A stretch of DNA of 37,132 nucleotides from a virus: the IMG/VR virus record IMGVR_UViG_3300046692_000313, positions 1 through 37,132 of that record. The stretch is one strand, 5' to 3'. Made by a program: the position numbers and the translations under genes. Of the stretch, positions 22,956 to 33,740 are shown in pieces. Every line of letters begins with the position of its first letter. The stretch's first letter is position 1. The notes beneath the pieces are model-generated. The model ran no database searches. It saw nothing but the letters and a program-made list of their open reading frames with translations, and was not told the origin of the DNA.

Positions 22956-24388
22956 AGGCCACCTCCAGAGCGGTAGAAATCGGAATTGCGGATGGCCTGC
23001 CGGGCGCCGAAGAAATAGCCCTGCCGACGCGCTAGGTCGCCCTGTCGGTTCTTGGCGGTATAGATCTCGATGCGGTCGCGCACGCGCTGCATATCCAGCT
23101 CCCAGCTCTCCCGGCGCTTGGTGTCGAAGACGTCCGGCTCCGCCCGCTGGAGGTAATATTCCTCCCGGAACACGAAGATGACCTGATCGGCGTCCTGCTC
23201 GAGCGATCCGCTGTCACGCAGGTCGGAAAGCTGCGGCCGCTTGTCCTCTCGCTGCTCGAGCCCGCGGCTGAGCTGGGACAGCACAATGATGGGTAGGCCG
23301 TTCGCCTTCGCCACGCTCTTGATGGTACGGCTGATGGTCGTCACCTCTTCCTGCCTGTTCGAACGACCAGGCGGCGGGTCGATGAGCCCGAGATAGTCGA
23401 TGATGACGAGGTCGAGCGACTGGCCACGGCGCTCGAACGCCTGCTTGTGCCGACGGATAAGCGGGCCGATCTGCCCTGCGCTCAGGCTTTCGGGATCATC
23501 GATGACCAGCGGCCAAGATTCGATTTCAGCGCGCAGTTCCTGGAGCAGGCGAAGGTCGTGATCATCGACCCGCCCCGATTTGATGGCATCGAACCCCGCA
23601 CGGCCTCCAGCGTCGAACAGGAGGTCAGCGATCATCCGCTGCATCAGCTGCGGCGTTGCCATCTCCCGGCTGACGTAGAGCACGCCGTGCCCGGCCTGGG
23701 CAGCGCGGCGGGCAACGCCCAGGGACAAGGCGGTCTTCCCCATGCTGGGCCGTCCACCGATCAGCACATAGTCACCCGGCTGCATCCCGCCGGTAAGATC
23801 GTTCCAGTCCGACCAGTCGTGCACTTTCAGGCCGGGCGCGAGCTCCCCGCGGCGCAAAGCCTCTATCCGCCGCAGGGCGTCACCATAGGCATCTGCGAAT
23901 GTCTTCGTCCGGCCGGCGACATTGCCGGGCACTGTCTCGGCAAGGCAGCGCTCGAGTGTGTCCAGCGTTTCGTCAAGATCGACCGAGATGTCCGCCACCG
24001 CCGCCGTCCCCGCTTCCAGACTGCGGAGCAGCGACCGTCGGCGTGCCGAGTTGATCAGGTCGTCGACATAGGCGAGGGCACTGAGGACGAAGCTGTCGTT
24101 GGACAGTTTGATCCAGTAGCTGGCGCCGCCGATGTCCGCGAAAGAGGGCTCGCTAGACATGACGCGCGATACCGACGGGATGTTCACCGGCTTGCCGGCA
24201 TCGGCCAGCACCCCGATCTCATCATACATGCGCGCGAACAGCGGCTCGGAGAAGTGCTCGGCACGCAGCTTCCCGGCCACCCGATCATAACCGCCATCGG
24301 CTATCATGATCGCTGTCAGGATCGCCGCTTCCATCTGGACGGTCGAGGGAAGGGTTTGCGGGAGCGGCAATGTTTGGTGCGATCCCAT
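22952..24388 (-). CDS. dnaB: DnaB-type replicative helicase
   Basis: The protein has 478 aa from ATG 24388, which overlaps the stop of the XRE gene (ATGA); a longer frame upstream is antisense-like and is rejected. The N-terminal domain (15-110, VQMEAAILTAIM and FSEPLFARMYDEI) is the DnaB N domain. The RecA-like C domain has Walker A GRPSMGKTA (212-220), VSREM (239-243), and Walker B LVIIDYLGLI (327-336), then the QLSRGLEQREDKRPQLSDLRDSGSLEQDAD signature with catalytic residues. It unwinds phage DNA at the fork and is loaded through the initiator encoded after it. Length is typical. Confidence 0.95.
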   Translation of the reverse strand: MGSHQTLPLPQTLPSTVQMEAAILTAIMIADGGYDRVAGKLRAEHFSEPLFARMYDEIGVLADAGKPVNIPSVSRVMSSEPSFADIGGASYWIKLSNDSFVLSALAYVDDLINSARRRSLLRSLEAGTAAVADISVDLDETLDTLERCLAETVPGNVAGRTKTFADAYGDALRRIEALRRGELAPGLKVHDWSDWNDLTGGMQPGDYVLIGGRPSMGKTALSLGVARRAAQAGHGVLYVSREMATPQLMQRMIADLLFDAGGRAGFDAIKSGRVDDHDLRLLQELRAEIESWPLVIDDPESLSAGQIGPLIRRHKQAFERRGQSLDLVIIDYLGLIDPPPGRSNRQEEVTTISRTIKSVAKANGLPIIVLSQLSRGLEQREDKRPQLSDLRDSGSLEQDADQVIFVFREEYYLQRAEPDVFDTKRRESWELDMQRVRDRIEIYTAKNRQGDLARRQGYFFGARQAIRNSDFYRSGGGL

Positions 24389-29337: not shown

Positions 29338-29640
29338 ATGGCCGCCGACGTCGCCGGATATGGCAATGGCCCTGAAAGCGGCCCACGGCAGTCCGGGCTT
29401 GAGGATGCGCTCATGAACGCGCCCGCGCTGGCTGGCAGGCGACGCCGCGCGAAAGCGGTCTATCCGGGCAAGGTCGCAATTCGCCATGCCCGGGAGGCGG
29501 CGGAATCGATGGGGATTGATCCAGGCGGCCTTGAGATACGCCCTGATGGCACGATACGCATCTTCGATCGCGCAGCGATTTCCACGGCCTCACCGAAGGA
29601 TGAGTTTGAAGAATGGCTACAGGCCGGAAAACTGGGGTAG
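29338..29640 (+). CDS. Small protein coupled to integrase, candidate excision factor
   Basis: The protein has 100 aa from ATG 29338, right behind AGGGGAAG; a longer frame from 29263 overlaps the previous gene and is rejected. AVYPGKVAIRHAREAAESMGIDPGGLEIRPDGTIRIFD is a short basic alpha/beta module that I recognise as a frequent companion just before tyrosine integrases in alphaproteobacterial prophages. Its stop lies 28 bases inside the integrase gene. A role as recombination directionality factor is possible from this position, but no classical excisionase helix-turn-helix is evident. Confidence 0.75.
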   Translation: MAADVAGYGNGPESGPRQSGLEDALMNAPALAGRRRRAKAVYPGKVAIRHAREAAESMGIDPGGLEIRPDGTIRIFDRAAISTASPKDEFEEWLQAGKLG

Positions 29641-30731
29641 AGGGCGTCCACATCGTCACGGCCCGCAAGCTGGGCAAGCCGGTGCGCCATTACATCTACG
29701 CGTGGCGCGGCGGCCCCTGCATCAGGACCGTCGTGGGCGGTGAAAAGCCCACCATCACCCAGGATGACGTAAAGGCGATTGCCGCCGCCCTGGAGGCCGC
29801 GAAGCCAGTACTGAAGGACACCATCGCAGGACTGGCCACCGCCTATCGCTCAAGCCCAGAATGGAAGGCGCTCGAGGCGTCCACCCGCGACACATGGGGG
29901 CGAGCGCTCGACAAGATCGAGGCGCGGTGGCCGAACGTTCCTTTGCGGCTGTTCTGCGATCCCCGCATGGTCACACAGGTCGTCAAATGGCGCGACGAAA
30001 TGGCAGAGACCCCACGCGCTGCAGACATCGCCATCGCCCAGCTTTCCCGCCTGCTGGAATTCGGCCGGCTGCGAGGCAAGGTGACCGTGAATATCGCGGC
30101 CGGCATCCCGACCCTTTATCGCAACGCCCAGCGCGCTGAAATCATCTGGACCGACGAAGACATGAAGGTCTGGAATACGCATGAGGACGTTTACCAGTCC
30201 CTGCGTGATGTCGTTGCCCTGGCGGCCGAGACCGGCCTGCGCCGCGCCGACCTGATCGGCCTGACGTGGGACGAGATTGGAGAGGTGGCCATCACGCGGA
30301 TCGCCAGGAAGAAGAGCCGGGGTAAGCGCCGACGGGTCGTCATGCCGATCGTGCCGGGGCTCGCGAAGGTGCTGGATGATTTGAGGAAACGCCCCCGGCA
30401 CGACGGGATCAACACCGTGCTTGTCACCAGCCACGGTACGAGCTGGTCAGGCAATGGCCTGTCAGGCAGTTTCGGAAAGGCGGTGCGCGCCGCGGACATC
30501 CATCATGTCGATTCTGACGGCGAAAAGAAATTCAAGCACCTTCACGACATCCGCGGCACCTATGCAACCAAGCTGATGACGGCGCCGGGGCTCAATTTGA
30601 CCGACAAGGAAATTGCGCAGTTGATGGGCTGGACGCCGGAACAGGTGTCAGAGATCCGCGCACACTATGTGGACGATGCTGCTGTCGTAATCGCGCTGGG
30701 ACGTAGGATCGCCAAAGTCACGAATCGTTAG
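29613..30731 (+). CDS. int: Tyrosine-type phage integrase
   Basis: The protein has 372 aa. Arm/core-binding domain about 60-170, catalytic domain about 175-372. Catalytic residues: Arg210 in TGLRRADLIGL, Lys region around ARKKSRGKRR (231-240), His311-x-x-Arg314 in HLHDIRGTYATKL, Trp340 at the second His/Trp position (LMGWTPEQV) and the nucleophile Tyr352 in AHYVD. All are present, so the enzyme should be active. It is the last gene of the rightward block and converges with the Fic gene, overlapping its stop by 14 bases. The likely attP is about 1.2 kb downstream. Confidence 0.95.
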   Translation: MATGRKTGVEGVHIVTARKLGKPVRHYIYAWRGGPCIRTVVGGEKPTITQDDVKAIAAALEAAKPVLKDTIAGLATAYRSSPEWKALEASTRDTWGRALDKIEARWPNVPLRLFCDPRMVTQVVKWRDEMAETPRAADIAIAQLSRLLEFGRLRGKVTVNIAAGIPTLYRNAQRAEIIWTDEDMKVWNTHEDVYQSLRDVVALAAETGLRRADLIGLTWDEIGEVAITRIARKKSRGKRRRVVMPIVPGLAKVLDDLRKRPRHDGINTVLVTSHGTSWSGNGLSGSFGKAVRAADIHHVDSDGEKKFKHLHDIRGTYATKLMTAPGLNLTDKEIAQLMGWTPEQVSEIRAHYVDDAAVVIALGRRIAKVTNR

Positions 30732-31368
30732 CGGCTCCAGCCGCCTGTGCAGCAGCATCCTCCTGAGCGATACGCAATTGTTCCACAACCATTTTATCTA
30801 TGAAAGCCGTCATCTCTGACAGGTCCGTCTCCATCGCAGGGCGTAGTCGTGCCGCATCCATTCTGTTCAGAATGTCGCAATAATCTTGGCGGTTCGCCGT
30901 GCGCATCAGTTCAAGGATAGTGGTACGGCCAGGGAGCCATTTTCGAAACTTTTTGCAAAGCACATAGTAACATAGCGCGCGCGCAGTGCGGCCATTACCT
31001 TCGCAAAATGGGTGGACGTGATTGATCGCCCACAAAGTGTACGCGGCGGCCTCGGTTGGCTCCCATTTTGCCCAGTTTTTATGGAGAATTTCGAGGAAGC
31101 CATCCATCTCCTCATAAGCAAGCGACCAGTCGGAAGGCGTATGCTTCCCAACCACCACATTGTAGTGCCGCCGATAACGGCCCGGCTGCATTGAAAGATA
31201 ACGCGCGGCATAGGCGTTCAGCGTGCAGACGAACTCATGATCGATTTCCAAACCATCAGCATTTTCTGAGATCACGAAAGATGTCTGGAGAAAATCGAAC
31301 TGCCTCGCCCTGTTCCTCTCTGAAACAAACTGACCAAGCGGGCTTTTGCCCTCTACTACTAATCCCAT
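30718..31368 (-). CDS. Fic-domain protein (AMP-transferase type)
   Basis: The protein has 216 aa from the ATG at 31368 (TGGGG in front); an in-frame ATG four codons earlier at 31380 is also possible. The core motif HPFCEGNGRTARAL contains the full Fic signature HPFxxGNGR (residues 119-127 in this numbering), with the catalytic His, so it should transfer AMP or a related group to a target protein. GRYRRHYNVVVGKHTPSDW looks like the Fic flap region. No inhibitory motif is obvious in the protein itself. A 55-aa partner is encoded directly upstream, with a hairpin between. The function is probably toxin, or interference with host or rival phages. Confidence 0.9.
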   Translation of the reverse strand: MGLVVEGKSPLGQFVSERNRARQFDFLQTSFVISENADGLEIDHEFVCTLNAYAARYLSMQPGRYRRHYNVVVGKHTPSDWSLAYEEMDGFLEILHKNWAKWEPTEAAAYTLWAINHVHPFCEGNGRTARALCYYVLCKKFRKWLPGRTTILELMRTANRQDYCDILNRMDAARLRPAMETDLSEMTAFIDKMVVEQLRIAQEDAAAQAAGAANDS

Positions 31369-31384
31369 GCTGCCCCACATAACA

Positions 31385-31437: not shown

Positions 31438-31605
31438 TCAAGCAAATTCTGCCATATCAATGGAGCGCCTGACCGATTCCTTGGTGCCATTCTCTTGTTC
31501 GGGTGCATTTCCGTAAACGAAACTGATCCGCTGAGCCTCGATTTCCTCGTGCGACATGCGATAGTCTTTGAGACTTTCAAGCGCTTTTTTGAGTTCCTCG
31601 GACAT
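31438..31605 (-). CDS. Small protein upstream of fic, candidate Fic antitoxin
   Basis: The protein has 55 aa, ATG at 31605 with an ideal AAGGAG site seven bases before it. Its sequence is MSEELKKALESLKDYRMSHE, then EIEAQRISFVYGNAPEQENG, then TKESVRRSIDMAEFA. The stretch ISFVYGN (27-33) resembles the (S/T)xxxE(G/N) inhibitory motif of VbhA-like Fic antitoxins, with Gly at the Glu position. Coding is supported by the ribosome site, by position directly before fic on the same strand, and by the terminator after it. As Fic inhibitors are usually small proteins encoded directly upstream, an antitoxin role is likely. Confidence 0.75.
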   Translation of the reverse strand: MSEELKKALESLKDYRMSHEEIEAQRISFVYGNAPEQENGTKESVRRSIDMAEFA

Positions 31606-31892
31606 GCGTTTCTCCTTGGCTAGCCCCTGTTCACCAACGAAAGAAGAGATAAACTGTTCCGGTTAAGGAATTGCTACCAGCACCCCGCTGAACGGCCACT
31701 CTCTCGCTCTCGATTGCCCCCACCTATGTGAACGGCATAGTCGAAGCAATACAACGACGCGGAGAATGCAAAATAAACCTGTCAAGTCCTTGATCGCGTT
31801 TTTTTACTTATTCTCTTCGATATGTGGCGAGCGGTAGGTGTTGACGACGCGCCCCTAACCATGGCACTGGGCGGACGTCTCGCACAGACCGT
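31606..31892. other. Gene-free region between fic module and attachment site
   Basis: No frame with convincing codon use was found on either strand. Composition is more AT-rich than the genes, with a T7 run at 31799-31805. It must contain the promoter of the fic module on the minus strand, but no clear boxes could be fixed. Confidence 0.5.
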
Positions 31893-32023
31893 TGTAAAAC
31901 GAACTGTAAAACGCCAGACGTCAATGTCCATAAGTCATTGAAAAGCGGGTATAGCTCAATGGTAGAGCACTAGCCTTCCAAGCTCTCTAAAATCCAGTGA
32001 GTGCGGCGCCTTTGCTGTAAAAT
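31893..32023. other. attP: Probable phage attachment site (attP) with 5' half of tRNA-Gly(TCC)
   Basis: 31945-31984 reads as the 5' half of a tRNA-Gly: acceptor strand GCGGGTA, D-arm GCTCAATGGTAGAGC, and the anticodon arm with loop CTTCCAA (anticodon TCC). After GCT the sequence leaves the tRNA: no T-arm or 3' acceptor strand follows. On both sides are TGTAAAA elements, at 31893 and 31905 on the left (12 bases apart) and at 32016 on the right, as expected for integrase arm sites. Crossover in the anticodon loop of a host tRNA-Gly gene is inferred. Confidence 0.7.
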
Positions 32024-32706: not shown

Positions 32707-33342
32707 ATGGACCGGGCAATTGTTGGAGCATTCAGTGAAGAGCAGGTGGCTAAACTCACCGGACTTTCGCGTGCCCAGCTTCGGCAATGGAACCGAAACG
32801 GCTTCATCCGACCATCGTTCAAGGCCAGCGATGATGCCCGCAAGCCATACAATTACATCTATTCGTTCACGGATCTGCTGAAGCTGAGGGTTTTGAACCA
32901 GCTGCGCAATAGGCACGGCGTTTCGATGCAGGAACTCCGCAAGGTTGAACGCTCTCTCGATCACCTTGGCGATGACAAGTGGACAAAGCAGAAGCTTTGG
33001 GTGTCGAACCGCAAGGTGGTTTTCAACGAGCCCGAATCGCTCCGCAAGCGCGAAATTTCGAGTAAGCAGTTCGTCGCTGAAATCGCGTTGGAGGTCGTTA
33101 CGTCGGATGCGCGTGAAGACATCCGTCGCCTGAATGACCGTGATGAAGAAGCGGTGGGTCAGGTCGTAAAACGCCGGCACGTCCATTCGTCCGAGCCAGT
33201 GTTCGCCGGCACCAGGATACCAGTGGCGGCGATCGTGGATTATATCGAGGCTGGGTATTCCAATGAGCAAATCATTGGACAATTCCCCGCCTTGCGTGAT
33301 GGCGACATAGAGGCTGCTCGTCTAATGCCTGAGGCTGCTTGA
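32707..33342 (+). CDS. MerR-like / DUF433 antitoxin
   Basis: The protein has 211 aa, ATG at 32707 with AGAGGG in front. Residues 8-80 are a MerR-type winged helix (FSEEQVAKLTGLSRAQLRQWNRNGFIRPSF, YSFTDLLKLRVLNQLRNRHGVSMQELRKVE). Residues about 155-205 are a DUF433 domain (VFAGTRIPVAAIVDYIEAGYSNEQIIGQFPALRDGDIEAA). DUF433 proteins are antitoxins paired with PIN-like DUF5615 toxins, and here such a toxin follows with a TTGA overlap. The MerR domain probably binds the palindrome at 32680-32698. The module is complete and looks functional. Confidence 0.9.
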   Translation: MDRAIVGAFSEEQVAKLTGLSRAQLRQWNRNGFIRPSFKASDDARKPYNYIYSFTDLLKLRVLNQLRNRHGVSMQELRKVERSLDHLGDDKWTKQKLWVSNRKVVFNEPESLRKREISSKQFVAEIALEVVTSDAREDIRRLNDRDEEAVGQVVKRRHVHSSEPVFAGTRIPVAAIVDYIEAGYSNEQIIGQFPALRDGDIEAARLMPEAA

Positions 33343-33740
33343 CCCGGAAGAAGGTTTGTATTCCCTTTTTCACCGACAACGACGTCCCGGACGATGTTGG
33401 TGAATTTCTCCGCGATTCCGGCCATGACCTGACCCGGCTGAGGGATGTCATGCTCGACAGTTCAGCAGACCCTGTGGTGGCAGCAGCTTGTCGTCGGGGT
33501 GGATTGATTTTGATCACGCACAACGTCAAGCATTTCCGCGCCATCGTGAAAGATCATCAGGTTACTCGCGGTGAAGTCGACACGTTGAATCGCATTGAGA
33601 TGGGGTGCCGGCAAATTCGCTCACGCGCGCGTATCGAAGCCGCCCTATCTGTCATAGAGGCTGAGTGGTCACGATCCGAAACGCAGAAAACGGGAATACG
33701 TCTTTGGATTGGCGATGAGGTTATCCGCATCCACCGCTGA
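33339..33740 (+). CDS. PIN-like (DUF5615) toxin
   Basis: The protein has 133 aa from TTG at 33339, which overlaps the antitoxin stop (TTGA), so it is translated by coupling. Motifs of the PIN-like fold: FFTDNDVPDDVGEFLRDSGHDLTRLRD (acidic Asp pair at the N-terminus), DPVVAAACRRGGLILITHNVKHF (T-H/N motif). The C-terminal 40 residues are variable. Members are predicted ribonucleases that act with DUF433 antitoxins. In a prophage the pair may serve stabilisation or defence. Confidence 0.85.
   Translation: MTRKKVCIPFFTDNDVPDDVGEFLRDSGHDLTRLRDVMLDSSADPVVAAACRRGGLILITHNVKHFRAIVKDHQVTRGEVDTLNRIEMGCRQIRSRARIEAALSVIEAEWSRSETQKTGIRLWIGDEVIRIHR

Follow-up and report, generated by a model that had tools for sequence, protein, structure and literature searches.

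Reversed-polarity integration of a Sphingomonadaceae phage family within tRNA-Gly(TCC) and a probable promoter of the rebuilt tRNA gene in the integrase 3' end or beside attP

Integrases are usually described as restoring their target genes without change. The Islander collection contains 159 islands out of 3919 that carry a 5' tDNA fragment (PMC4383910). This class resembles the locus described here, since the island supplies the 5' part and the host the 3' part of the gene, a tyrosine integrase is involved and the crossover is centred on the anticodon. It differs in that it is a minority statistic, for which we found no report of an integrase-embedded promoter or of a fossil host promoter. 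In the archaeal pTN3/TKV4-like integrases, attB likewise lies in the 5' half of a tRNA gene, a block of 41 bp is shared and the tRNA is parted from its original promoter (PMC5495485, PMC8371274). However, integration splits the archaeal integrase gene, whose promoter is said to drive expression of the tRNA, whereas here the integrase gene stays whole and the promoter is proposed to lie at its 3' end or beside attP. The defining feature of the pTN3 type, an integrase disrupted at an att site within its own gene, is therefore not met, as the gene is intact in the prophages. According to a review on this type, citing Williams 2002, such expression of a tRNA from the promoter of an integrase is seldom met in bacteria. 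The classical 3'-half integrases include related ones (L053/L145, G079), which are 47% identical, use the same tRNA with an anticodon-loop core and face the att site with the 3' end of their gene. In contrast to the present case, they keep the host promoter, the phage contributes the 3' half, and the integrase gene lacks the motif TTGAC-N16-TGGCA described below. While the 5'-half polarity is thus already known, the new part is the location at which the promoter most likely lies, for which no transcription data exist. In the open-access literature searched (most subscription papers were outside the scope), no report was found in which a tRNA promoter lies in the 3' end of an integrase gene, or in which the promoters of host tRNA genes descend from such an end.

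The window, by which we mean the whole analysed stretch of 37,132 nucleotides from the virus record IMGVR_UViG_3300046692_000313, is a circular-looking whole phage genome, whose contig closes on itself through a terminal repeat of 127 bp. It encodes a tyrosine integrase of 372 aa (29613..30731, plus strand; Pfam Phage_integrase PF00589 8e-10, PHROG integrase 5e-27). The criterion for a tyrosine recombinase is met, with Arg210, His311, Arg314 and Tyr352 invariant in the integrase alignment and the catalytic tyrosine codon at 30666-30668. A megablast comparison of window 27-37 kb with named phages gave no match, and the closest integrases of named phages are at most 34% identical. Between the integrase gene and attP lies a cargo segment (about 30.7-31.84 kb) with a gene for a Fic-domain protein (30718..31380, minus strand; Pfam Fic 1e-13) and an adjoining upstream ORF of 55 aa found in the sequence (31438..31605, minus strand), which we take to be a VbhA-like antitoxin on a reading of the sequence only, without a search. 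In homologous close relatives this segment is absent and the integrase gene directly precedes the tRNA gene.

The sequence at 31945..31984 (plus strand), GCGGGTATAGCTCAATGGTAGAGCACTAGCCTTCCAAGCT, matches nt 1-40 of the Sphingobium tRNA-Gly(TCC) at 40/40 positions, which is not attributable to chance. This attP core comprises the 5' acceptor strand, the D-arm, the 5' anticodon stem, the loop CTTCCAA with the anticodon TCC at 31977-31979, and 3 nt of the 3' stem. After 31984 the window departs from the tRNA and no 3' half is present; neither ARAGORN nor Rfam called a tRNA at 31945-31984. A tRNA-Cys was called by ARAGORN at 23597-23685 (minus strand) within a DnaB-like helicase ORF, and is probably a false positive. 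Based on Pfam and PHROG, phage or integrase genes flank the half tRNA on both sides. Two TGTAAAA repeats at 31893..31899 and 31905..31911 form a pair in the segment conserved beside the tRNA in relatives, and a third at 32016..32022 lies in the other attP arm (all plus strand); CTGTAAA(A/G) occurs at a comparable position to the third in the attL of G001, G003 and G002. All three are putative arm-type sites of the integrase. The first-pass annotation, made from the sequence alone, had stated that attP holds the 5' rather than the 3' half of tRNA-Gly(TCC), that the fragment ends after the anticodon loop, that TGTAAAA repeats flank it and that this polarity is unusual among tRNA integrases. These claims held, with the amendment that the polarity is of a rare but already known kind.

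No genome with an integrated copy of the exact window phage was found; the junctions were determined from relatives. Integrases 79-89% identical to that of the window occur in Sphingobium faniae, S. soli, Sphingobium sp. C100 and viral contigs. If the contig extends far enough, the integrase stop codon is followed by 27 nt, the complete tRNA-Gly(TCC) and then host DNA. Across the prophages the intact integrase gene is directed towards the tRNA and stops 27-57 nt short of it. This side, ending in the complete tRNA, represents attR, while the far end, with a 5' half followed by phage DNA, represents attL. In G003 and G002 the host promoter precedes the 5' half at attL; in G001 this half lies 42.7 kb away, behind the integrase remnant of a second, tandem element. 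The same layout of an intact tRNA, an integrase and a displaced upstream 5' fragment was observed over about 41.8 kb in G033 and 30.3 kb in G081. A comparison of the occupied G033 with the empty G032 showed a left flank of 96% identity aligned to exactly nt 40 of the tRNA and a right flank of 98% aligned from exactly nt 1. The same overlap of 40 nt (nt 1-40) was found between the empty G047 and G073, which holds a remnant of ~1.8 kb. As the attL of G033 departs from the tRNA right after CTTCCAA, and fragments retained by opposite-polarity elements at the same gene start at the anticodon stem or loop, the crossover is inferred to lie in the anticodon loop.

These junctions show that whatever lies upstream of the crossover comes from the phage, and that the host's own promoter and 5' half remain at attL. 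A normal 3'-type attP read backwards was rejected on the same grounds, and the features of classical 3'-fragment integration, an attP with the 3' part and a host promoter that is kept, are not met. The prediction of the first-pass annotation that the tRNA is rebuilt from a phage 5' half and a host 3' half is supported by attL and attR of the Sphingobium relatives, though not for the exact phage. Its further statement, according to which the promoter of the rebuilt tRNA has to come from phage DNA, follows from the junction geometry. A specific candidate was found, whose transcription is inferred only.

Upstream of the Sphingobium tRNA-Gly(TCC), the motif TTGAC-N16-TGGCA was found at -38 to -58 in 40 of the 58 genes with upstream DNA in hand, at -78 to -105 in 12, and was absent in 6. 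Since the sample was partly picked by similarity to one host upstream, 40/58 is not a random count. In the 5'-type prophages the motif lies within the integrase gene, where it covers the codons of V353-D354 and V360-A361, directly behind that of the catalytic Tyr352, and encodes YVD....VA as GTTGAC...GTGGCA about 104 nt before the tRNA (mostly 103-107 nt). Among 29 distinct integrase genes ending at most 100 nt from the tRNA, the full motif was present in 24 and TTGAC in 27. In contrast, neither was detected in the six opposite-polarity integrases (0/6 each), though most of these retain the V-D residues. Exceptions are L187 and L237, without motif or obvious substitute, and L181, L204, L207 and L243, which retain TTGAC only. 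Other tRNA upstreams sampled in G073 showed TTGAC-N17-NATAGN-like promoters, with TTGAC as their -35, or none that was obvious. The full motif occurred in none of those sampled in this one genome, and TGGCA was on this basis rejected as a general Sphingobium tRNA promoter element. Because TGGCA is unlike the NATAGN -10 of these promoters, the -10 bases of the candidate are uncertain.

The polarity of the related integrases was assigned from the neighbouring tRNA. A 5'-type label, meaning that tRNA-Gly (TCC or CCC) or its 5' half lies downstream in the same direction as the integrase gene, was given to 35 of 92; in 6 of 92 the tRNA has the opposite direction. The 5'-type set includes phage contigs whose attP holds the 5' half only (L237, L243, L247), and half-tRNA attP in L244, L252 and L294 were recognised later by inspection. 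With the same polarity and an embedded motif, tRNA-Gly(CCC) is targeted by L183-L185, L193, L199, L201, L203, L206, L208 and L209. One anticodon-loop site is shared by 5'-type and 3'-type elements. On the integrase tree, polarity changes only twice, one change being a strongly supported reversal (L145/L241) nested in the 5' clade. With only two changes, the values of 24/29 and 0/6 are not phylogenetically independent, and weight was therefore placed on a codon control within the genes, which does not depend on the polarity contrast, and on adjacency to the tRNA. At V353 the codon is GTT in 26/28 compared to 15% elsewhere in the same genes (p 8e-20), at A361 it is GCA in 24/24 compared to 15% (p 2e-20), and at V360 it is GTG in 27/28 compared to 30% (p 1e-13). 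These p values assume independent genes and are overstated among the closest relatives.

With the integrase stop codon within about 65 nt of the tRNA, 28/33 genes contained the motif, compared to 0/12 of those separated from it or without a following tRNA (Fisher 2e-7; classes assigned by hand, later additions counted). Separated integrases use GTGGAC, GTCGAT or GTCGAC at this position. The window integrase, with the C-terminal codons GTGGAC...ATCGCG, lacks the motif in this copy. The only TTGAC-N16-TGGCA in the 37 kb, on both strands, is TTGACG-ACGCGCCCCTAACCA-TGGCA (TTGACG-N15-TGGCA) at 31841..31866 (plus strand), while about 0.07 would be expected by base counting. This proposed promoter of the rebuilt tRNA, assigned by motif match and distance, precedes 31945 by exactly 104 nt, the spacing seen in the Sphingobium prophages. 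It is part of a segment homologous (78-88%, blastn against L004, L005, L008 and L010) to an integrase 3' end, spacer and tRNA 5' half (31839..31984, plus strand), which by comparison with related prophages is likely a second copy of the integrase 3' end kept beside attP. A relocated motif stands beside the tRNA at exactly 104 nt in L210 and L232 and at 143 in L211, and is replaced by TTGACG-N17-TAATAG in L238 and TTGACG-N17-TAAGGG in L186. In the separated L237, nothing was recognisable as motif or substitute.

Altogether, reversed-polarity integration combined with a phage-borne TTGAC-N16-TGGCA promoter is considered the likely explanation, in which transcription is inferred without transcription data. 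The window would represent a temperate phage of Sphingomonadaceae, with Sphingobium prophages as close relatives, that integrates with reversed polarity via the anticodon loop of tRNA-Gly(TCC). At attR, the regenerated tRNA gene would comprise phage upstream DNA, the 5' half (nt 1-40) and the host 3' half, with the host promoter and its 5' half stranded at attL. Transcription would most likely start from TTGAC-N16-TGGCA about 104 nt upstream, and RNase P is inferred to trim a leader of up to about 80 nt. In most relatives this promoter would be embedded in the integrase gene, where it overlaps the codons that immediately follow that of the catalytic tyrosine. For the window, it is inferred by comparison that the fic cargo split the integrase gene from attP and that the promoter survives in the duplicated integrase 3' end at 31841-31866. 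Such a function would explain the dual-coding constraint on the integrase gene. Since the only tRNA copy in an infected cell would depend on a promoter borne by or adjacent to the integrase gene, a deletion of this phage segment would be expected to come at a cost for the host. Window 32707-33740 (plus strand) encodes, in this order, a MerR + DUF433 protein and a DUF5615/PIN-like protein, which together look like a toxin-antitoxin pair. The host tRNA promoter stranded by integration would be directed towards them.

Among the rival explanations, it is unlikely that integration supplies the 5' half as described but the tRNA is read through from the integrase promoter, the motif being an attP site for Int, Xis or a host factor. 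Read-through is favoured by the short distance of 27-57 nt over which the integrase gene reads into the tRNA and by the expression reported for the archaeal pTN3, and the near-constant spacing of mostly 103-107 nt could also reflect a protein-binding site of attP, which remains possible. Against this rival speak the presence of the motif at -38 to -58 upstream of the gene in uninfected hosts, the use of TTGAC as -35 by other tRNA genes of the genome, and the canonical-looking promoters that take the place of the motif in L238 and L186. In the window, the cargo with its convergent fic gene parts the integrase from the tRNA. A purely protein-based constraint, in which the motif merely reflects conserved residues and codon usage, is very unlikely. 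The residues YVD....VA are indeed conserved in the family, but GTT and GCA are used at only ~15% of other valine and alanine codons, separated integrases encode the position with GTGGAC, GTCGAT or GTCGAC, and the motif is still present in fossils that have lost the capacity to encode Int.

It is equally very unlikely that the half tRNA of the window represents a decayed attL or some stray piece of tRNA instead of a working attP. The absence of a tRNA call and of the 3' half would fit this view. Against it stand the contig closing on itself with its terminal repeat, the phage or integrase genes on both sides, the upstream segment on the phage side, which matches the attR of relatives and not host DNA, and other phage contigs with the same half-tRNA layout; a decayed attL was rejected on the junctions of the relatives.

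It is further inferred, from fossils, that upon decay of a prophage the promoter in the integrase 3' end is retained beside the tRNA and takes over as that of the host. In at least 7 host lineages, a fossil of the integrase 3' end with the motif lies upstream of the tRNA, with no intact integrase of the family beside it. From the motif onward these upstreams read as the integrase C-terminus, with the catalytic tyrosine codon lost: VDDAAIVVALGER (L073), VDDATFAVALADRIG (L078), VDDPVPVVALGKRLAAASVKRS (L081), VDDAAVVMALAHRIG (L083), VDDAAVVVALSPRIG (L151), VDAAAIVMALSDRI (L155) and VDEGGTVMAIATRI (L161). In L073, L078 and L081 the tRNA is preceded, at a distance of 139-158 nt, by the end of a long unrelated ORF. 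Three members of a 60-genome sample of the family (L154, L160, L163) have a tRNA-Tyr directly upstream in the same direction and no motif, an arrangement inferred to be the older state. That the ordinary Sphingobium promoter at -43 is itself an old integrase fossil is plausible and possible, but not shown. On balance, we lean towards the bolder reading that a host tRNA gene, apparently present as a single copy, has repeatedly had its promoter replaced by phages. The Sphingomonadaceae tRNA-Gly(TCC) promoter, ancestrally probably downstream of tRNA-Tyr, would then now widely be a fossil of the integrase 3' end, kept by selection after loss of the prophage. If true, a phage rewires an apparently essential host tRNA gene, which runs on viral DNA even after the virus has decayed, and prophages have a concrete route to leave permanent regulatory DNA in bacterial genomes.

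Further observations concern the occupation of tRNA-Gly genes by related elements. In G077 (L087/L143), the tRNA-Gly beside the integrase has a change of C2 to G, which would mismatch position 71, and a second intact tRNA-Gly copy is present; no attL was found for the changed tRNA, and no conclusion was drawn. The tandem 5'-type remnant beyond the first prophage of G001 (C61 around 222075, L019) has a different integrase C-terminus, YVDGSKVVVAIGR. Another upstream class without the motif (..GGAATGGCC.TGGAA.AGCC..) precedes tRNA-Gly(TCC) or its 5' half in L076, L082 and L088 and possibly represents another family of 5'-type elements. On contigs C54, C13 and C12 of G003 (L020, L010, L017), one tRNA-Gly(TCC) apparently served as the target of a 5'-type prophage as well as of a 3'-type element, and both halves of the working tRNA may therefore be derived from mobile DNA.
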